Part shown: in pieces, positions 1,841-11,258 of the stretch
Layout: each line of letters begins with the position of its first letter
Numbering within the stretch: the stretch's first letter is position 1
Assembly (NCBI GenBank): GCA_017431185.1
Contig: JAFRLP010000666.1
Location: 1 to 11,258 of the forward strand
Direction: 5' to 3'
Source of the DNA: Victivallales bacterium
Lineage (GTDB): Bacteria; Verrucomicrobiota; Lentisphaeria; Oligosphaerales; Oligosphaeraceae
Length of the DNA stretch: 11,258 bases
Position numbers and translations under genes: made by a program
The notes under the pieces: generated by a model
What the model was told of the DNA's origin: nothing
The model's input: the letters and a program-made list of their open reading frames with translations, nothing else
The model's database searches: none

Positions 1841-3109
1841 TTATGCCTGGAGATGGTCTGGCACGTGGACATTGCGGATCATGTCCTCGAAGACCTCTCT
1901 GTCACGAATGAGCCAATGCTGCCGGCCATTGACCAGCACCTCGGCGGGACGCAGGCGCCCATTGTAGGGATAGCTCATCCCGTAGCCATACGCGCCAGCG
2001 TTCTCGACGACCACCAGGTCGCCCAGTGCAATCCCCTCGGGCAGCATGCGGTCGCGCACCCAGTAGTCCGTGTTCTCGCAGACCTGCCCGCAGAGCCCCA
2101 CGGGCTTGCGGCGCTCGCTCTCACGCCCGTTGATGTAGATGTGGTGATAGGCTCCGTACATCGCGGGGCGCGCCAGCGTGTTCATGCTGATGTCCGTGCC
2201 GATGATGCGCGTGTAGCTGTCCTTGATGGTATGCACGGTGCCGAGCAGCCATCCTGCGTCCCCCACAAAATAGCGCGCGGGCTCCATGCCCAGGCGCGGC
2301 GGCTTCAGCCCGTACTGGGCGATTTTGCGCTTGAAGGTGTCCGCGACCAGTTCGGCGGCCTTCTCGATGTCCAGCACGGCGGCCTCGTGACGGTAGGGGA
2401 TGCCCAGGCCACCGCCCAAGTCCACGAAGTCAAAGTCGATGTGCAAGGTCTGTCCGACCTTGCCGATGATGTCCATCAGCAGTTCCGTGATGAAACGGAA
2501 GTACTCCGCGTCACAGATGCAGGAGCCTGGCATCATGTGTACGCCGAAACGCTGAATGCCCGCCTCCTTCGCCATGCGGTAGGCGTCGAGAACCTGGTCG
2601 GGGTGTATGCCGAACTTGGCGTCCGGCCCCGCATTGCAGACAAAATCGCCGACCTCGGATTTGCCATAGCCGGGATTGATGCGGAAGCAGAGGAGTTCCG
2701 GCTTGCCGTACTTGAGGACACGCGGGAGCAGGGAGATGTCGTCCAGATTGAAGATGACTCCCGACTCCAGCCCCTGCCGGATGTCCTCGTCCGACAGGAA
2801 GTTTCCCGAGAACATCACGTTCTCGCCGCCCAGTCCAAGTTGCTTGGCAAGGAGAATCTCATTGACGCTGGCGGCGTCTATGCCCGCACCCTCCTGACGC
2901 AGGATGTTGGCGATGGCCAGGTTGTTGTTGCACTTGATGGCGTAGAAGAAGTGGAAATCGGGATAGTATTTGCGGAAGGCCGCCAATGCGCGCCGGAAAT
3001 TGGCGCGGATGCGGTTCTCCTCATAGACGTAGGTGGGCGTGCCGTAGGCCTTCGCCAAGGCGGTCACGGGGACGTCTTCCAGGTAGATTTGGTCGCTCTC
3101 TATTCTCAT
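1841..3109 (-). CDS. lysA: Diaminopimelate decarboxylase
   Basis: The enzyme is PLP-dependent and converts meso-2,6-diaminopimelate to L-lysine plus CO2, the final step of bacterial lysine biosynthesis. The 422-residue product is normal length for this fold-type III decarboxylase. Lys59 in FFYAIKCNNN is the expected Schiff-base lysine. His191 in GVHMMPGS stacks on the cofactor, DLGGGLGIPY (230-239) is the phosphate-binding glycine loop, and MEPARYFVGDAG (275-286) corresponds to the family E-P-G-R-x-x-V motif. CGQVCENTDYW (340-350) carries the Cys-Glu pair that marks DAP specificity. GAYGYGMSYPYNGRLRPAEV (372-391) is the C-terminal active-site tyrosine region. Departures from the commonest motifs are HMMPGS instead of H-x-G-S, and EPAR instead of EPGR. 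No strong Shine-Dalgarno precedes the ATG. The gene lies 24 bp after the DUF1015 gene, so it is second in the operon. Confidence 0.95.
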   Translation of the reverse strand: MRIESDQIYLEDVPVTALAKAYGTPTYVYEENRIRANFRRALAAFRKYYPDFHFFYAIKCNNNLAIANILRQEGAGIDAASVNEILLAKQLGLGGENVMFSGNFLSDEDIRQGLESGVIFNLDDISLLPRVLKYGKPELLCFRINPGYGKSEVGDFVCNAGPDAKFGIHPDQVLDAYRMAKEAGIQRFGVHMMPGSCICDAEYFRFITELLMDIIGKVGQTLHIDFDFVDLGGGLGIPYRHEAAVLDIEKAAELVADTFKRKIAQYGLKPPRLGMEPARYFVGDAGWLLGTVHTIKDSYTRIIGTDISMNTLARPAMYGAYHHIYINGRESERRKPVGLCGQVCENTDYWVRDRMLPEGIALGDLVVVENAGAYGYGMSYPYNGRLRPAEVLVNGRQHWLIRDREVFEDMIRNVHVPDHLQA

Positions 3110-3133: not shown

Positions 3134-4333
3134 TTAAATCTCATGGACGAACAGGCCGTCCCGCAACTTGGGTTCAAACCAGGTTGACTTCGGAGGCATG
3201 ATTTCGCCTTGGTCGGCGATGGCCATCAACTGCTCCAAAGTGGTCGGATACATGGAGAAGGCCGCCTTCGCCTCCCCGCTGTTGACACGGCGCTCCAGCT
3301 CCCCCGTGCCGCGTATCCCGCCCACGAAGTCCAGGCGCTTGCTGGTGCGGGGGTCGTCAATGCCCAGAAGCGGCGCGAGGATGGCATTCTGCAGACGGCT
3401 GACGTCCAGCGTCTCCACGGCATTCGCATCGGCGGGCAAAGGCAAGGTCAACTGCCACCACTTTCCCAGGCAGTAGAGGCAGGCCACGCCAGGATGCGCG
3501 GGGACGGGGGAGGCTGCCTCGGCCAGCGGGGCGACCTTCCCCACAGCCGTCAGGAAATCCTGCTCGCTCATGCCGTTCAAGTCAAAAATGAGCCGATTGT
3601 AGGCCAGAATGCGCAGTTGGCTGGCAGGGAAGATGACCGCCAGAAAACGCCCCGATTCCCCGTCTCCCTGAAGGGCGGCGTTGACGCGGGAGGCGGAGGC
3701 GGCGCGGTGATGCCCGTCCGCAATGTACAGTTTGGGGATTTTGGCGAAGGCCTCCTGCACGGCTGCGGTCGCCTCGTCCTTCACGCGCCAGCCCGTGTGG
3801 GAGATGCCGTCCTCCGCCGTGAAGTCAAACAGGGGTGCGCCCTGCATGGTCTCGGCGACGATGGCGTCCAGTTCCGCGCAGTCGGGATAGGTCAGGAAGA
3901 CGGGTCCCGTCTGGGCGCGCAGAGTCTGGATGTGGTTGGTGCGGTCGTCCTCCTTGTCACGGCGGGTCTTCTCATGCTTGAGAATGACCTGGCGGTCGTA
4001 GTCCTCCACCGCAGGCGTGGCGACAATGCCCGTCTGCCGCCGTCCGTTCATCACCAGGGAATAGACGTAGTAGGCGGGAACCGCGTCCTTGGCCATACGG
4101 CGGTCACGCAGTTTCTGCCAGTTCTTGGCGGCCGTCTCATAGACCTTGGTGTCGTATGGAGAAACATCGTCAGGCAGGTCGATTTCAGACCGTGTGACGT
4201 GCAGAAAACTGTCGGGACCGGTGGCCATCCGCTTCGCCTCGTCCCGATTCATCACATCGTATGGCAACGTGGCGATCTTACTGGCTTTGGAAGCGGATGG
4301 GATTATCGCGGAAAATGGATAGACTTGAGCCAT
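3134..4333 (-). CDS. DUF1015 family protein (ParB-like DGHHR motif, possible small-molecule kinase)
   Basis: The 399-residue product is recognised as DUF1015 from two blocks in the right order: KHEKTRRDKEDDR (119-131) and YIADGHHRAASA (203-214). It begins with an N-terminal ALPYDV-like segment (ATLPYDVMNRDEA, 21-33) and shows no signal peptide or membrane segment, so it is cytosolic. The D-G-H-H-R motif is shared with ParB-fold serine kinases of archaea, and from memory a serine-kinase activity has been proposed for DUF1015 relatives. Phosphorylation of a small metabolite is therefore a reasonable guess, but nothing here proves the substrate. The gene is first in an operon with lysA, the HPr-like gene and rdgB. 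No clear Shine-Dalgarno precedes the ATG. Confidence 0.88.
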   Translation of the reverse strand: MAQVYPFSAIIPSASKASKIATLPYDVMNRDEAKRMATGPDSFLHVTRSEIDLPDDVSPYDTKVYETAAKNWQKLRDRRMAKDAVPAYYVYSLVMNGRRQTGIVATPAVEDYDRQVILKHEKTRRDKEDDRTNHIQTLRAQTGPVFLTYPDCAELDAIVAETMQGAPLFDFTAEDGISHTGWRVKDEATAAVQEAFAKIPKLYIADGHHRAASASRVNAALQGDGESGRFLAVIFPASQLRILAYNRLIFDLNGMSEQDFLTAVGKVAPLAEAASPVPAHPGVACLYCLGKWWQLTLPLPADANAVETLDVSRLQNAILAPLLGIDDPRTSKRLDFVGGIRGTGELERRVNSGEAKAAFSMYPTTLEQLMAIADQGEIMPPKSTWFEPKLRDGLFVHEI

Positions 4334-5550: not shown

Positions 5551-7047
5551 TCAACAAGGCAGGAAACGCCCGCGGCGGACAATCATCTGGGGGTGCGAGG
5601 CCTCCCATGCGGTCTGGCCCGCGACCATCACGCGGGACACCCCCAAAGGATATCTGTTCTCGCCGTGAAAGCCTGCCTGGGAGTCGAAGCGTTCCGCGTC
5701 AAGGATGACCAGGTCGGCGATGTATCCGGGGCGAACCAGCCCCCGTTCGGGAATGCGGAAGATGCTGGCGGGGAGGGAGGTCATTCGGCGCACGGCCTCC
5801 CCTGTCCCGCACAAGGCGCTGACCATGCGGAAGAATCTCGGGAAGGTTCCTTCGGCCCTGGGATGTCCCGACGCCGCGGGCGAGTCCAAAGGAGCGGCAA
5901 TGGCGTCCGAGCCGGCACAGACCCATGGCTGGGCGAGAATGCGGCGAAGATTGTCCTCCGACATGCAGAGGTAGGCGGCGCTCTGTTCGGGATTCCCGCA
6001 AAGTTCCAGCATGCAGGCGTGCTCCAGCGAGCATCCTTTCTCCTCGGCAAGGTCGGCAAGCGTCTTGCCCTTGGCAATGACAATCGTGGTGGCAAGGTCA
6101 CGGGGGCTGTGCTTCAATGCCTCGGCAATCTCCTGCCGATAACTGTCGGACTCCCGCAGTTTGGCGCGCAGTTCCGTCTCCAGGCTATAAGGAGGCGGCA
6201 GCGTCTGTCCAAGGCGGGTCGAGGAGTAGATGTAGGGATAGCGGTCGGCATGCACATCCAGTCCCATGGCACGTGCATTCTCAATGGTTTCCAGGAGTCG
6301 GTCGATTTTATGGAAATTGCGCGGGAAGATGGTTTTCAGGTGACTGAGCTGCAGCCGTCCGGAACCGGCCTTGGCGACGGCGATGGCCTCCTCCACCGCC
6401 TCGAGCAAAGAGTCCCCTTCACTGCGCATGTGCGTGGCGTGGATTTTGTCACCGCCACGGGTGACGGAGGACAATGCCTCCAGTTCCGCCGTGTCGGAGA
6501 ATTTGCCTGGGAAATAGGTCAGCCCCGTAGTCCAGCCAGCGGCGCCAGATGCCAGAGCCTCCTCCAGCAAGGTCTGCATGGCGCGCAATTCATCGGCGGT
6601 GGGCAGAGCGTTTCGGTTGCCCATGACCGCCCGACGCACACTGTTGTGCCCGCACAGCGCCACGGTATTGGTGGAGATGCGCAGGCGATTGACCAGTTCC
6701 GCATAATCCGCCAGATTGTCCCAATGCAAATCATCAAGGGTACCGGGGACGCAACTGGGGGATGCGCCGCAGTTGCCGTCCACCTCAGTGGTCACGCCCT
6801 GAAGCAGTTTCGTGCGGTTTTCAGGGAACTGGAGTTTGCGGGTATCGCCGTGGGAGTGGGCGTCAATGAATCCAGGGGTGACCATCAGGCCGGAGGCGTC
6901 CAGTCGCTCCGCATCCGCCCCCGCGCAGAGGCCAGGCGGCTCAACAGCCACGATGCGCGTACCCTGCACCAGGATGTCGCGGGGAACGGGAGGTGTCCCA
7001 GAGCCATCGCAAACCAGGCCGCCGTGTATCAGCAATTTGGAATCCAT
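5551..7047 (-). CDS. N-acyl-D-amino-acid deacylase (D-aminoacylase), amidohydrolase superfamily
   Basis: The enzyme would hydrolyse N-acyl-D-amino acids to a carboxylate and the free D-amino acid; related family members act on N-acyl-D-glutamate or D-aspartate. The 498-residue product has the TIM-barrel amidohydrolase plan with flanking beta domain. Metal ligands are visible at His64/His66 (GFIDAHSHGD), Cys93 (DGNCGAS, the bridging cysteine typical of D-aminoacylases), His206 (ATHMRSEGDS), His236 (LQLSHLK) and Asp381 (CAGSDAIA). Their spacing closely tracks that known for the Alcaligenes D-aminoacylase (67, 69, 96, 220, 250, 366). The conserved HPRAEGTFPR block follows at about 394. The start at 7047 (MDSKLLIHGG) matches the family N-terminus. 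An in-frame ATG at 7077 would add ten poorly fitting residues. Neither start has a clear Shine-Dalgarno. There is no signal peptide, so it acts in the cytoplasm. It stands alone, divergent from moxR. Confidence 0.9.
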   Translation of the reverse strand: MDSKLLIHGGLVCDGSGTPPVPRDILVQGTRIVAVEPPGLCAGADAERLDASGLMVTPGFIDAHSHGDTRKLQFPENRTKLLQGVTTEVDGNCGASPSCVPGTLDDLHWDNLADYAELVNRLRISTNTVALCGHNSVRRAVMGNRNALPTADELRAMQTLLEEALASGAAGWTTGLTYFPGKFSDTAELEALSSVTRGGDKIHATHMRSEGDSLLEAVEEAIAVAKAGSGRLQLSHLKTIFPRNFHKIDRLLETIENARAMGLDVHADRYPYIYSSTRLGQTLPPPYSLETELRAKLRESDSYRQEIAEALKHSPRDLATTIVIAKGKTLADLAEEKGCSLEHACMLELCGNPEQSAAYLCMSEDNLRRILAQPWVCAGSDAIAAPLDSPAASGHPRAEGTFPRFFRMVSALCGTGEAVRRMTSLPASIFRIPERGLVRPGYIADLVILDAERFDSQAGFHGENRYPLGVSRVMVAGQTAWEASHPQMIVRRGRFLPC

Positions 7048-7093
7048 GAAAGAAACAGGAGTGTTGACAGTGACCATATCAAAAAACAGCGAT

Positions 7094-7122
7094 AATGTAA
7101 TATGGAGAGTCAGGGATTACAA
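7094..7122 (-). promoter_or_regulatory. Candidate promoter of the D-aminoacylase gene
   Basis: On the minus strand, TTGTAA (7122-7117) and TACATT (7099-7094) are separated by 17 nt, each matching four of six consensus bases. Transcription would begin near 7087, leaving about 40 nt before the ATG at 7047 and only about 10 nt before the alternative ATG at 7077, which further favours 7047. It lies in the 218-bp divergent region shared with moxR. Confidence 0.35.
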
Positions 7123-7133
7123 TGGGACGGGCA

Positions 7134-7165
7134 ATTTTTGGCGCAAATCCCGCTTTTTTGCGCAA
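7134..7165. repeat. Inverted repeat with GCGCAAA/TTTGCGC arms upstream of moxR
   Basis: GCGCAAA (7141-7147) and TTTGCGC (7157-7163) form a perfect 7-bp inverted repeat around a 9-nt centre; the outer words GCGCAAAT and TTTGCGCAA are also found in the palindrome after moxR (8276-8311). It lies about 20 bp upstream of the candidate moxR -35 element and about 20 bp upstream of the deacylase -35, so it is well placed for a regulator of either gene. The word ATTTTTGGC at 7134-7142 recurs at 7227-7235, and a weaker copy is at 7255-7263. Confidence 0.45.
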
Positions 7166-7181
7166 CCTTTCGGATTGTCGC

Positions 7182-7209
7182 TTGAAAAAAAAAAAACATC
7201 ATTTATACT
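7182..7209 (+). promoter_or_regulatory. Candidate sigma70 promoter of moxR
   Basis: TTGAAA (7182-7187) and TATACT (7204-7209) are separated by 16 nt, and a run of twelve A (7185-7196) fills the start of the spacer. Transcription would start near 7216 and give a leader of about 80 nt. That leader holds a second ATTTTTGGCAA word (7227-7237) and a small TTGGC/GCCAA hairpin (7259-7273) just before the ribosome-binding site AAGGA (7284-7288), which is 7 nt from the ATG. Confidence 0.5.
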
Positions 7210-7295
7210 AATGAAAAATAGGCGATATTTTTGGCAACACGCTGAAATTCGGCAACTTTTGGCCTCGCGCCAACAGAAGAACGAAGGATTCAAAA

Positions 7296-8276
7296 ATGCA
7301 AATCGTGGAACTGATTACGGCGATACAAACCGAGATGTCCCGTCATCTGGTCGGACAGACCGGGGTAGTGGAGGCGCTGCTGGTCGGTGTGCTGACGGGC
7401 GGGCATATTCTCCTCGAAGGTGTCCCTGGCCTGGCCAAGACCCTGGCGGCGCGCGTGCTGGCGGGCAGTCTGGGCGGGAAGTTCTCCCGCATCCAGTTTA
7501 CCCCTGACCTGCTCCCCTCGGATATTGTCGGCAGCACTGTCTATCAGCCGGAGACAGGCCAATTTGCAACCCGCCCCGGCCCCGTCGCCGCCAATTTTGT
7601 GCTGGCGGATGAAATAAACCGCGCCCCTGCAAAAGTCCAGAGCGCACTGCTCGAAGCCATGCAGGAACACCAGGTCACCATTGCGGGACAGCGCTTCCCC
7701 CTGCCGGAGCCCTTTCTGGTGATAGCGACGCAAAACCCCATTGAACAGGCCGGCACCTACCCGCTTCCCGAAGCCGAAAAAGACCGTTTCCTGCTGAATG
7801 TCCACCTGACTTACCCCGAACGGGAGGAGGAACTGCAAATCATGGCCCGACAGCCGGCAGGCCCCGTGGAGCCCCAGGTCAGGCAGGTGGTCGCCGTGTC
7901 GGACGTGCTGGCGGCCCGCCAGGAACTGGAGCAGGTGCAGATGGACAGCCAAATTGCCGACTACGCATTGGATCTGGTGGTGGCTACCCGCCCTGGACAG
8001 CAGTCGCGGCTGTCGGCACGTCAGGACGAACACCGCTTTGACGCCGATGCGCTGGTGGAGTGCGGGGCCTCGCCCCGCGCCTCCCTGGCGATTGTGCAGG
8101 CGGCACGTGCGCTGGCCCTGCTCCATGGCCGTGCCTACGTCATACCGCATGACATCAAGCAGGCGGCCAGATTGGCCCTGCCGCACCGCATCATTCCCTC
8201 CCTGGAGGCGGAGAATCGGGGATTCAGCAGTCGGGATTTGGTGGAGCAGCTGCTGGGCAGCCTGTTGCCCCCTTAG
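7296..8276 (+). CDS. MoxR-family AAA+ ATPase
   Basis: MoxR proteins are cytosolic ATP-driven chaperone-like remodelers that usually work with a VWA or DUF58 partner to mature or activate a client. The 326-residue product is typical in length. Walker A is GVPGLAKT (42-49, Lys48). Walker B is FVLADE (101-106), followed by INRAPAKVQSALLEAMQEHQ. Sensor 1 is VIATQNP (142-148), and LPEAEKDRF (157-165) holds the conserved arginine-finger region. The C-terminal lid helices run to about 320. The start is supported by AAGGA 7 nt upstream. The gene has its own promoter. The usual downstream DUF58/VWA/transglutaminase genes are absent: the next genes are a Y-family polymerase and its YolD partner. The client is therefore unknown. 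Confidence 0.93.
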   Translation: MQIVELITAIQTEMSRHLVGQTGVVEALLVGVLTGGHILLEGVPGLAKTLAARVLAGSLGGKFSRIQFTPDLLPSDIVGSTVYQPETGQFATRPGPVAANFVLADEINRAPAKVQSALLEAMQEHQVTIAGQRFPLPEPFLVIATQNPIEQAGTYPLPEAEKDRFLLNVHLTYPEREEELQIMARQPAGPVEPQVRQVVAVSDVLAARQELEQVQMDSQIADYALDLVVATRPGQQSRLSARQDEHRFDADALVECGASPRASLAIVQAARALALLHGRAYVIPHDIKQAARLALPHRIIPSLEAENRGFSSRDLVEQLLGSLLPP

Positions 8277-8311
8277 TGTCTAATTGCGCAAATATTTGCG
8301 CAATTGGACAC
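8276..8311. promoter_or_regulatory. 36-bp near-perfect palindrome between moxR and the polymerase gene
   Basis: The core is a 12-bp arm AATTGCGCAAAT (8282-8293) followed without a gap by its exact reverse complement (8294-8305). Outside one T/G mispair (8281/8306), five more bases pair on each side (GTGTC 8276-8280 with GACAC 8307-8311), giving 17 of 18 pairs. It begins on the last base of the moxR stop codon and ends 21 bp before the polymerase ATG. No T-run follows on the plus strand, so it is not a standard terminator. The zero-spacer symmetry and position fit an operator for a dimeric regulator of the polymerase-YolD genes. An RNA hairpin at the end of the moxR transcript is the alternative. 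Confidence 0.7.
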
Positions 8312-8320
8312 CAATGCCAT

Positions 8321-8327
8321 GGAGGAG
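8321..8327 (+). promoter_or_regulatory. Strong ribosome-binding site setting the polymerase start
   Basis: GGAGGAG at 8321-8327, with the GGAGG core ending 7 nt before ATG 8333, is the best Shine-Dalgarno in the window. It shows that translation begins at 8333 and not at the earlier in-frame codon at 8276, which lies in the palindrome. Confidence 0.8.
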
Positions 8328-8332
8328 AGAAG

Positions 8333-9832
8333 ATGCCTGACCGTATTTACATCGCCATTGACCTGAAGTCGTTCTACGCCTCGGTGGAGTGCGTTGACCG
8401 ACGGCTTGACCCGCTGACCACCAACTTGGTGGTGGCGGACAAGAGCAGGACTGACAAGACCATCTGCCTGGCGGTCTCCCCCGCGCTGAAACAGTGGGGG
8501 ATTCCTGGGCGTCCCAGGCTTTTTGAGGTTGTCCAGAGGGTGCAGGAAATCAATGCCCTGCGTTTGCTGGATGCGCCATACCGCCGTTTCATCGGCAAAT
8601 CCTGCTTCACGCCAGCGCTTCAGTCGAATCCCGCGCTGGCACTGGACTATCTGGTCGCCCAGCCCCGAATGGCCCGCTACATGGAGGTCAGTTCGCTGAT
8701 TTACGCCGTCTATATGAGATTCGTCTCCCCCCGAGACGTCCACGTCTATTCCATTGATGAAGTGTTCATCGACGCCACACAATACCTGAAACTGTACAGA
8801 CTCACCCCGAGGGAATTCACAATGCGCCTTGTTCGCGGAGTGCTCCGCTCCACTGGCATCACCGCCACCGCAGGCATTGGCACGAACCTCTATCTCGCCA
8901 AGGTCGCCATGGACATCGTGGCAAAACACATTGCCGCTGACCAGGACGGCGTGCGCATCGCCGAACTGGATGAACTCGCCTACCGTCGGCAGTTGTGGTG
9001 CCATCGTCCGCTCACGGATTTTTGGCGCATCGGACGGGGCTACGCGGAGCGCCTGGAATCCCGGGGTCTGCGCACGATGGGGGACGTGGCACGGATTTCC
9101 CTACACAACGAGGAGTGGCTTTACCGCCTGTTCGGCGTCAACGCCCAACTGCTCATTGACCATGCGTGGGGATGGGAGCCATGCACCATTTCGGCCATCA
9201 AGAACTATCGTCCGCAAAGCAATAGTCTGAGCGTCGGTCAGGTGCTGCAAACTCCATACGATTTTGCCAAAGGCCGACTGGTGGTGAAGGAGATGGCCGA
9301 CGGTCTGTCGCTTGATTTGGTGGCAAAGCACCTGGTCGCCGACCAGATGGTTCTGACGGTGGGCTACGACATCGAGAATCTGAAGGGAGAGCATGTGTCC
9401 TATCGTGGTCCGATTCACATTGACCACTACGGAAGGGCAGTGCCCAAAGAGGCGCATGGCTCCCAAAATCTGTCGCAGTACACCTCCTCCTCACGCGCGA
9501 TTATGGAGGCGGTGCTCTGTCTCTATGACCGCATTGTGAACAGGAGTCTGCTGGTGCGCCGAATGTATGTCGTCGCCAATCACGTGCGGAACGAGGAGGC
9601 AGTCCAATCCTCAGCCCGTCCCGTGCAGTTGGAACTCTTCGCCGATTATCGGGCAATGGAGGCAAAGGAGGTTGCGCAGAAGGCCAAGCGCGCCCGCGAA
9701 AGACGGGCGCAGGAGGCGGTCATCGCCATCCGAAGAGCCATGGGCAAAAACGCCATTCTGAAAGGGATGAATCTGGAGGAAGGCGCAACGGCCCGCGAAC
9801 GGAACCAGCAGATTGGCGGACACCGCGCTTAA
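8333..9832 (+). CDS. Y-family translesion DNA polymerase, UmuC/UvrX-like
   Basis: This would be an error-prone DNA polymerase that copies past damaged template bases. In the 499-residue product, catalytic acids are Asp10 in IAIDLKSFYASVE and Asp142/Glu143 in VYSIDEVFID. The substrate helix block ITATAGIGTNLYLAKVAMDI (about 180-199) and a helix-hairpin-helix thumb (FWRIGRGYAERLESRGLRTMGDV, cut here for length: about 230-250) follow. A little-finger domain occupies about 285-430. QLELF (432-436) is a textbook beta-clamp binding motif, and a charged, Arg/Lys/Glu-rich helical tail of about 60 residues follows it. The GIGTNLYLAKVAMDIVAKH block resembles Firmicutes UvrX/YqjW polymerases more than E. 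coli DinB, as does pairing with a YolD-like gene 2 bp downstream. The start is fixed by GGAGGAG. No LexA box of E. coli or Bacillus type was seen; the adjacent palindrome may be the control site. Confidence 0.93.
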   Translation: MPDRIYIAIDLKSFYASVECVDRRLDPLTTNLVVADKSRTDKTICLAVSPALKQWGIPGRPRLFEVVQRVQEINALRLLDAPYRRFIGKSCFTPALQSNPALALDYLVAQPRMARYMEVSSLIYAVYMRFVSPRDVHVYSIDEVFIDATQYLKLYRLTPREFTMRLVRGVLRSTGITATAGIGTNLYLAKVAMDIVAKHIAADQDGVRIAELDELAYRRQLWCHRPLTDFWRIGRGYAERLESRGLRTMGDVARISLHNEEWLYRLFGVNAQLLIDHAWGWEPCTISAIKNYRPQSNSLSVGQVLQTPYDFAKGRLVVKEMADGLSLDLVAKHLVADQMVLTVGYDIENLKGEHVSYRGPIHIDHYGRAVPKEAHGSQNLSQYTSSSRAIMEAVLCLYDRIVNRSLLVRRMYVVANHVRNEEAVQSSARPVQLELFADYRAMEAKEVAQKAKRARERRAQEAVIAIRRAMGKNAILKGMNLEEGATARERNQQIGGHRA

Positions 9833-9834
9833 AG

Positions 9835-10257
9835 ATGATGGACGTTTTTCCCTACGAGGACATTGTGAATCTTCCGCATCATGTCTCGCGACGGCATCCC
9901 GCGATGCCTCTGCATGGCCGTGCCGCGCAGTTTGCGCCATTTGCCGCGTTGACGGGATACGAGGAGGTCATTGACGAGACGGCCAGGCCGACCGAGGAGC
10001 GCCGCGAACTCGCCGATGATGCCCGTGCATTGCTAGACATGCATCTAAAACTGCTGGCCGCGCATCTGGCGGAGCAACCATGGGTGACAGTGACGTATTT
10101 TGTTCCGGACCAGCGCAAACAAGGAGGCAGGTATCTCCGTGTCACAGGTCGTCTGCTTGCCATCATGCGGTCAGAGCAGGCATTGCGCCTTGCTGACGGA
10201 ACCGCCATCCCCATCCATGAACTGTATGCCATTGACAGTCCCCTGCTGGACAGGTAA
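9835..10257 (+). CDS. YolD-like protein, partner of the Y-family polymerase
   Basis: The 140-residue product matches the YolD-like family seen beside UvrX/YqjW polymerases in Firmicutes. It opens with YEDIVNLPHHVSRRHPAMPL and continues GRAAQFAPFAALTGYEEVID (28-47) and ETARPTEERRELA (48-60), all family hallmarks. The second half, VTVTYFVPDQRKQGGRYLRV (84-103) and DGTAIPIHELYAID (121-134), is a small beta-rich domain. Family members have been suggested to act like UmuD as polymerase accessory factors, but this is not established. The start codon lies 2 bp after the polymerase stop with little Shine-Dalgarno (TTAAAG), indicating translational coupling. ATG 9838 is an alternative start one codon downstream. 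No membrane segments are visible. Confidence 0.9.
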   Translation: MMDVFPYEDIVNLPHHVSRRHPAMPLHGRAAQFAPFAALTGYEEVIDETARPTEERRELADDARALLDMHLKLLAAHLAEQPWVTVTYFVPDQRKQGGRYLRVTGRLLAIMRSEQALRLADGTAIPIHELYAIDSPLLDR

Positions 10258-10267
10258 TGTTACGCGC

Positions 10268-10293
10268 CTGACATTTTCCGTCAGTTGGTTTTT
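10268..10293 (+). terminator. Weak candidate terminator after the polymerase-YolD operon
   Basis: CTGAC (10268-10272) and GTCAG (10280-10284) form a 5-bp stem with a 7-nt loop, followed by TTGGTTTTT (10285-10293). It sits 11 bp after the YolD-like stop and just before a new promoter, the expected place. The stem is short, so efficiency would be low. Confidence 0.35.
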
Positions 10294-10304
10294 CAAGAGT
10301 GAGA

Positions 10305-10332
10305 TTGAAAAAATCGGCAAGGCGTATATATT
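10305..10332 (+). promoter_or_regulatory. Candidate sigma70 promoter of the fmdB-like gene
   Basis: TTGAAA (10305-10310) and TATATT (10327-10332) are separated by 16 nt, the same layout as the candidate moxR promoter. TATATA at 10325-10330 is an overlapping alternative. Transcription would start near 10339 and give a leader of about 70 nt to the ATG at 10411. Confidence 0.5.
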
Positions 10333-10410
10333 TTAATGATGCACGGAATATGACACCGAAGCATCCCCTGGCGGTGCCAGAGAGTGTTCAAGAAAGGAGT
10401 TTTCACCCAA

Positions 10411-10698
10411 ATGCCTACCTACGATTACAAATGCGAGAAATGCGGAGACCGTTTCGAGCATTTTCAGAGCATGAGTTCGGAGCCACTGCGTGTCTGCAAG
10501 AAATGCGGCGGCAAACTTCATCGTCTGTTTGGAGAAGGAGCCGGAGTCATTTTCAAGGGTGGTGGATTCTATTGCACGGACTACCACAGCAAGAACAGCG
10601 TGTCCAGCGAGACGCACGAGGCCAAAACCGAAAACGGGGTCAAGTCGGACAGCAAGCCATCCGGCGCGGCAACCTCCGCCAGCAGCGCTGGCAAATGA
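10411..10698 (+). CDS. FmdB-family zinc-ribbon protein
   Basis: The 95-residue product starts MPTYDYKCEKCGDRFEHFQS and has two Cys pairs, Cys8/Cys11 and Cys29/Cys32 (RVCKKCGGKL), forming one zinc ribbon. VIFKGGGFYCTDY (46-58) is the usual FmdB-family ending of the folded part. A low-complexity Ser/Lys/Ala tail completes it. The family name comes from a putative regulator of methanogen formamidase, but the role of most bacterial members is unknown. The start is chosen at 10411 because AAAGGAG (10393-10399) lies 11 nt upstream and the family begins MPxYxYxC. The upstream in-frame codon at 10384 precedes the Shine-Dalgarno. The next gene, also a zinc-ribbon protein, starts 40 bp downstream, probably in the same operon. 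Confidence 0.9.
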   Translation: MPTYDYKCEKCGDRFEHFQSMSSEPLRVCKKCGGKLHRLFGEGAGVIFKGGGFYCTDYHSKNSVSSETHEAKTENGVKSDSKPSGAATSASSAGK

Positions 10699-10738
10699 GC
10701 GCATCGCGTTTACCAACACCACCGAATGAGGAATCACC

Positions 10739-11258
10739 ATGGGTTTGAAATGTCCGAAATGCGGCACTGACAATCTGCTGACCTCCATCTTCTGCCGCGG
10801 ATGCGGCGAGAAACTTGACCTGAATGCGATGAAGCCGGACGCAATCCAGAAGACTGCCGCCGGCGACAAGGCCAAAAAGAAGACCAGCCCCGCCGCCAAA
10901 GCGGTCACGGCTGGCCTGACCGTCGTGCTCATTCTGTTCATTGCCGCATTTTTCTGCCCCACGGGAGGTTTAAAGGGGAATGAGCCCAGCGAGCAGGCCA
11001 AGAAGGATTTTCAGACACTGCAGAAGAGCAAAAGCACCTCTGGCAAGAAAAAGAAGAACAAGAAGGCCGCGCCTGCGCCCGCCCAGTCAAAAAGTTTCAC
11101 CTTCAGCGATGCGGACTCCACCGCCCTGGCCAACAAGACCCTGGGATTGCCGAAGAGCGAGGGCAACGATGTGCTCCCCCAGAATCTGAGCGTGCGTTAC
11201 CAGGAGGAGAACACCCTTCAGCTCATCCTCACCTGCAAGCTATTCGGCTTTCTGCCCA
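10739..11258 (+). CDS. Zinc-ribbon, single-pass membrane protein, C-terminus beyond window
   Basis: The gene starts at ATG 10739 with GAGGA (10728-10732) 6 nt upstream and is open to the right edge, so 173 residues are visible. It begins MGLKCPKCGTDNLLTSIFCR, with Cys5/Cys8 and Cys19/Cys22 forming a short zinc ribbon of the kind found at the N-terminus of many bacterial membrane proteins. A Lys-rich segment precedes one hydrophobic helix (about 55-72, AVTAGLTVVLILFIAAFF). Then come a Lys/Ala/Pro-rich linker (about 95-116) and the start of a probably folded, extracytoplasmic domain (from about 117). The positive side before the helix favours the zinc ribbon in the cytoplasm. I do not recognise the outer domain and assign no function. 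Confidence 0.85.
   Translation, partial: MGLKCPKCGTDNLLTSIFCRGCGEKLDLNAMKPDAIQKTAAGDKAKKKTSPAAKAVTAGLTVVLILFIAAFFCPTGGLKGNEPSEQAKKDFQTLQKSKSTSGKKKKNKKAAPAPAQSKSFTFSDADSTALANKTLGLPKSEGNDVLPQNLSVRYQEENTLQLILTCKLFGFLP

Follow-up and report, generated by a model that had tools for sequence, protein, structure and literature searches.

A loopless palindrome between moxR and a Y-family DNA polymerase gene in a Victivallales bacterium is probably the relic of an IS630-type miniature element

The 36 bp that join the end of moxR to the leader of a DNA polymerase gene in an uncultured Victivallales bacterium form a nearly perfect palindrome, and the question raised by this locus is whether these bases regulate the neighboring genes, fold in their transcript or were left behind by a mobile element. 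The window (the whole stretch of 11,258 nucleotides that was analyzed, from contig JAFRLP010000666.1) carries three consecutive forward-strand genes around the junction: moxR (7296-8276), encoding an AAA_3/MoxR-type ATPase (Pfam AAA_3, 8e-62, and AAA_lid_2); a UmuC/UvrX-like Y-family DNA polymerase gene (8333-9832), assigned from its homologues and from Pfam IMS (6e-25) and IMS_C; and a gene for a YolD-like partner protein (9835-10257). The latter was named by position and homology, and its product matched neither Pfam nor NCBIfam. A YolD-like homologue adjoins the polymerase in 135 of 144 loci, and polymerase homologues, one of them 85% identical, include entries named Oligosphaeraceae, Lentisphaerota and Victivallales. 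YolD proteins are described in the literature as paired with such polymerases (PMC6511836).

The palindrome spans 8276-8311 (GTGTCTAATTGCGCAAAT/ATTTGCGCAATTGGACAC), with 17 of its 18 positions paired and a loop of zero. An inverted-repeat search placed a perfect 24-bp core at 8282-8305, beyond which lie one mismatched pair and then five extra pairs on each side, in agreement with the first-pass annotation, which had described an exact 24-bp palindrome extended to 36 bp. The same annotation correctly had the palindrome starting on the moxR stop codon (position 8276 is the last base of the TAG at 8274-8276 and the first base of the palindrome) and a strong ribosome-binding site downstream of it (GGAGGAG, 8321-8327, ahead of the polymerase ATG at 8333). 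Its further remark that a terminator T-run is lacking agrees with the sequence, where no T-run adjoins the palindrome on either strand, and with a terminator scan of 7050-10800, which returned no site at 8276-8311, a classical intrinsic terminator (stem plus T-run) being absent there. An Rfam search gave no match at gathering scores, and megablast of the moxR-polymerase DNA against plasmids gave no match.

Among the six inverted repeats listed for the window (arms within 200 bp), this palindrome is the longest. Its loopless perfect arm measures 12 bp with the outer five pairs left uncounted, compared with a maximum of 11 bp in 300 first-order resamples of the window, and because no resample reached a 12-bp arm, the palindrome is not regarded as chance sequence. 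Hence, the initial assessment that it lies far beyond chance holds relative to random sequence; it does not carry over to related genomes, in which long loopless palindromes are common. DNA totaling 1.54 Mb, taken from six relatives’ genomes, contained 54 of them (at least 11 pairs, a loop of at most 2, one mismatch), including 33 outside crude ORFs, a term that in these censuses means simply the longest open frames and not predicted genes. Noncoding pieces held 28 palindromes, whereas five second-order resamples averaged 1.4, and 10 of the 33 non-ORF palindromes had at least five T among eight flank bases. Some of the arms are themselves dispersed repeats: GAGGNAATTTCAAAACT (at most one mismatch) occurs about 200 times each in genomes G045 and G001, partly as inverted pairs, and is present in 14 of 29 family genomes. 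Since loopless intergenic palindromes are common in Lentisphaerota relatives and some arms are dispersed, the presence of a perfect one next to a gene argues only weakly for regulation, and for the latter reason we tested the window’s arm as a repeat end.

The arm was searched as GTGTCYAATTGCGCAAAT with at most three mismatches, against a reversed-pattern control. Matches outnumbered those of the control in G044 (24 versus 0), G047 (12 versus 2) and G046 (11 versus 3), and some of those in G044 and G047 form inverted pairs about 140 bp apart. Matches above control were also found in G050 (20 versus 3), G051 (14 versus 2) and G053 (8 versus 0), where they varied in sequence and where the one inspected from each genome had no TA outside. 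A one-mismatch match in G051, the closest single one in the family, was rejected as an element end on account of the missing outside TA. In G045, six scattered three-mismatch matches were found, with no sign of the terminal inverted repeat (TIR) family. Twenty loci, picked for recurrence or pairing, were fetched from G043, G044, G046 and G047 and yielded 25 related ends, with TA directly outside 24 of 25 and CTA outside 21 of 25. Positions 1-4, 7-10, 15, 16 and 18 are invariant across these ends, which resemble the window partly by selection, having been found with its own arm, and all of these positions match both window arms; base 14 is C in both window arms versus T, G or A in the 25 ends. 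The outside TA and the transposase were not selected for, with the exception that the pattern that found the viral element L438 (see below) contained the left TA. A control set of 11 scattered matches was drawn from eleven genomes, the closest carrying one mismatch; TA was outside 0 of 11, and six lay inside ORFs.

Related ends were found on both noncoding and coding elements. In G044 and G047, the arm bounds transposase-less MITEs of 97-158 bp, five of them complete, with TA outside 9 of 10 ends, and in G046 and G047 it lies at the ends of transposase-coding elements. A 42-aa transposase tail in G047 had no match in a Pfam scan and weak matches to plasmids (E of 0.09 and above among the matches listed), several annotated as IS630 family transposases and others not; 21 of its 42 residues are identical to the transposase tail of L438. 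The TIR pattern matched two viral contigs, L438 and L437. The former holds an intact element of 1,119 bp (6177-7295), whose left end is exactly TAGTGTCTAATTGCG and whose right end has diverged (2 mismatches in 16), with CTA outside both. Its 359-aa transposase contains Pfam DDE_3 (2.6e-21) and HTH domains and is 47-49% identical to annotated plasmid IS630 transposases, ISRj1 included (best 25 of 892); a search by sequence yielded no solved structure for it. The L437 match falls within an ORF and lacks a partner end, and the window’s own variant of the pattern led to one viral contig, L439, likewise with no paired end. A search for PF13358 transposases in the 29 family genomes gave 19 matches in 10 genomes; no fetched locus had the TIR on both sides, and one three-mismatch TIR match (L422) was seen.

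Both arms of the window palindrome can be placed in this family of ends. The left TIR (GTGTCTAATTGCGCAAAT, 8276-8293, forward strand) is identical to both G047 MITE ends at 16 of 18 positions. Outside it stands a TA (8274-8275) that also supplies the first two bases of the moxR TAG and presumably represents the retained target dinucleotide; from this TA into GTGTCTAATTGCG, 15 bases (TA and the outer 13) are shared without mismatch with the left end of the L438 element, which has TA on both sides and which, unlike the window palindrome, is 1,119 bp long with a 359-aa transposase. The right TIR (8294-8311, reverse strand; reverse complement GTGTCCAATTGCGCAAAT) abuts the left TIR and differs from the left arm at base 6. 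On this side, GTGTCCAATTGCG is followed by CA (8312-8313), one base off TA and presumably the target duplicate with one substitution, such that the target-duplication comparison finds TA on the left flank and CA on the right. The pattern TAGTGTYTAATTGCG matched the window with 0 mismatches at 8274 and 2 mismatches at 8299-8313, and at up to three mismatches these two arms were its only matches, with no further end in the window. The palindrome has no transposase gene of its own, being 36 bp long with abutting arms. Because of the TIR identity, the left TA and the TIRs common to MITEs and a complete transposase-coding element, the palindrome is read as two abutting IS630-type TIRs. Judged from these sequence comparisons, it is very likely a defunct miniature element of the IS630 (Tc1/mariner) type that lacks an interior and sits at the moxR stop codon, although the CA on the right flank and the C at base 14 of both arms speak against this. 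What looked like an operator may thus be reinterpreted as probably a relic of a mobile element, and for uncultured Lentisphaerota relatives, the termini of an IS630-type element and of its MITEs are described here.

The following course of events would account for the present arrangement. An IS630-type transposase in the lineage may have moved elements ending in GTGTYTAATTGCG, inserting them at TA, and one copy would have landed in a TTAA where moxR ends. The moxR stop codon would thereby have become TAG, composed of the target TA and the first G of the element. Once the 36 bp and one copy of the target are taken out, the flanking sequence is CCCCCTTA|ATGCCATGG; in the joined flanks (TTAATGCC), moxR would stop at TAA and its protein would be unchanged. 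The interior would have been either lost or absent from the start, so that two TIRs of 18 bp came to stand head to head; on the right, two substitutions would have followed, at TIR base 6 and in the change of TA to CA. We infer the insertion event, the loss of the interior, their timing and the lack of function from the present-day sequence. The first-pass suggestion of a scar or recognition end from a cassette insertion is supported as to the kind of feature, a scar, which is however ascribed to an IS630-type miniature element; as to the polymerase cassette it finds no support, no further copy of the end lying in the window at up to three mismatches.

Several known systems resemble this element in part. 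Insertion at TA with duplication of this dinucleotide, as by IS630-type transposases, is documented for ISY100 (PMC2170065), and a precedent for IS630-type MITEs is provided by RUP of Streptococcus pneumoniae, which has TIRs in common with IS630-Spn1 and TA targets (PMC2229807). As described there, RUP is like the window element in carrying the TIRs of an IS630-type transposase element, in its TA target and in being intergenic and noncoding, but it is 107 bp long with an interior, compared with 36 bp without one. Correia/NEMIS elements are likewise short, TIR-bounded and TA-flanked, but at 107 and 155 bp, with a 24-bp TIR, they are set apart by their description in the same source (PMC2229807). 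The G044 and G047 MITEs have the TIR of the window and TA outside their ends as noted, but differ in having at least 61 bp between the 18-bp ends. In the relatives examined, no interior-less element of the window’s TIR family was seen. ISRj1, of the IS630 family, encodes a transposase 47% identical to that of L438; its type of ends was rejected as a match, as the best TA-flanked pairing in one copy begins GTACCC, is poorly paired and is not GTGTYTAATTGCG. One full-text literature search on miniature inverted-repeat elements in Lentisphaerota gave one paper, which concerned Porphyromonas.

Alternatively, the palindrome could act in RNA, forming a hairpin between cistrons or at the 3' end of the moxR transcript that serves termination, processing or stability. 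When folded, the sense RNA forms 16 pairs around a 4-nt loop and turns the mismatch into a U-G pair, at an energy of -24.1 kcal/mol versus -19.8 kcal/mol for the opposite strand, and an 85-nt context has a z of -4.62. In relatives, hairpins of at least 10 pairs are distributed at 1.22 per kb in convergent gaps, 1.01 in tandem gaps and 0.37 in divergent gaps. Such a role is possible, at a low probability: any pair of transposon ends would fold likewise, and the palindrome is without a T-run, although a published survey reports that poly-U is not required (PMC8355165). Moreover, mismatches in relatives’ tandem gaps are A-C in 42 cases versus G-U in 47 (10-pair, two-mismatch setting), and since A-C is about as frequent as G-U, the relatives give no indication that the RNA strand is under selection; none of four settings showed a clear G-U excess. 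In three relatives, the next ORF begins at most 16 nt past the moxR stop codon, and no hairpin was seen there.

It is similarly improbable that the palindrome is an operator, with TTGCGCAA-ATAT-TTGCGCAA bound by a dimeric regulator (a repressor or an activator) of the polymerase-YolD pair and perhaps also of moxR. The two TTGCGCAA blocks lie 12 bp apart, and a third exact copy is located at 7158-7165 in the moxR/amidohydrolase gap, 16 bp upstream of a moxR promoter-like site, where 0.0065 copies are expected in that gap (an expectation tested after the fact). That copy is single, however, and not a repeated pair, and the noncoding DNA of relatives shows no excess of TTGCGCAA (8 observed versus 7.4 expected). 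The search of relatives for the core upstream of polymerases, set beforehand by the first-pass annotation, went against an operator of the polymerase-YolD pair: within 200 bp upstream of homologous polymerases, the 10-bp half-site was found in 0 of 140 regions and TTGCGCAA in 1 of 140. Of these regions, 80 came from genome loci, 28 from the 30 class loci and 32 from the 34 viral loci; four loci were omitted for want of a gene start. Palindromes of unrelated sequence (arms of at least 8) did precede the polymerase in 9 of the 80 genome loci and 5 of the 28 class loci. No regulator was recognized by Pfam among the ten window proteins scanned, and the outer GTGTC/GACAC and the TA are accounted for by a TIR, not by an operator.

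The 20-bp core was likewise of little help to an operator. Exact copies were absent among the matches listed for 197 class genomes (all but those of G191, G192, G197 and one of G190), and the exact 20-mer was not found in the literature searched. At up to three mismatches, the core occurred in 54 of the 197 genomes, and because 25 of the 30 matches fetched lie inside ORFs, these matches are mostly ascribed to chance. Among the viral contigs, the exact core occurs once (L001, 10509-10528), accompanied by a partial second copy; it stands some 60 bp ahead of a HicA/HicB toxin-antitoxin pair (hicA-hicB), for which it is plausibly the operator. This proves little for the window, as a 20-bp palindrome has only ten free bases. 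A LexA-type or other SOS operator finds no support either: the upstream regions of lexA in 24 relatives (up to 170 bp, by reading) contain no TTGCGCAA-type palindrome. The Gram-positive LexA box (GAACN4GTTC) precedes the polymerase in 9 of 80 genome loci, where shuffles predict 0.25, and in 1 of 32 viral loci; it was found in 0 of 28 class loci and nowhere in the window.

A combination of relic and operator, in which a transposon-derived palindrome was co-opted such that a host regulator or the HTH domain of an IS630-type transposase controls the polymerase-YolD pair and finds a second site in the TTGCGCAA copy near the moxR promoter, appears quite unlikely. Least likely of all is that the palindrome marks a boundary or integration end of a polymerase-YolD cassette: the pair does look accessory (G045 has just a weak polymerase match, and in class loci with flanks of about 1.5 kb, no window gene except the pair is found beside the polymerase), but no second end lies on the far side of the pair at up to three mismatches, and the IS630-type ends in relatives flank their own MITE or transposase, not polymerases.

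By the decarboxylase encoded at 1841-3109 (89%), which we take to be NspC, G045, from the class of a Victivallales genome, is the nearest of the relatives compared; this match and the names of the polymerase homologues place the host in Lentisphaerota. G045 is not syntenic at the junction: its long match to the window stops at 4198, its polymerase match is weak (4.3e-4) and not a close homologue, and it has no copy of the palindrome core. A second dispersed family, with ends GAGGNAATTNCAAAACT, was observed 201 times in G045, 196 times in G001, 65 times in G047 and 54 times in G046, often as inverted pairs (in many of the pairs inspected, the starts are 33-137 bp apart) and in places joined directly as a pure palindrome (e.g., L203 11525-11572 and L358 8671-8703). 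Two G045 loci near contig ends (L345 and L369) contain long palindromes of the form CTGTCCCCC...GGGGGACAG with nearly identical flanks, which suggests another repeat element. Elsewhere in the window, a 541-aa protein without a Pfam match is encoded at 247-1872, its NCBIfam match to HPr (residues 343-386) being weak and short of the cut-off, and a T-tailed, terminator-like hairpin lies 3' of the YolD-like gene at 10268-10284. Lastly, G001 carries two full polymerase copies (C78:410399 and C32:16020), 73% identical to that of the window, in addition to a fragment.
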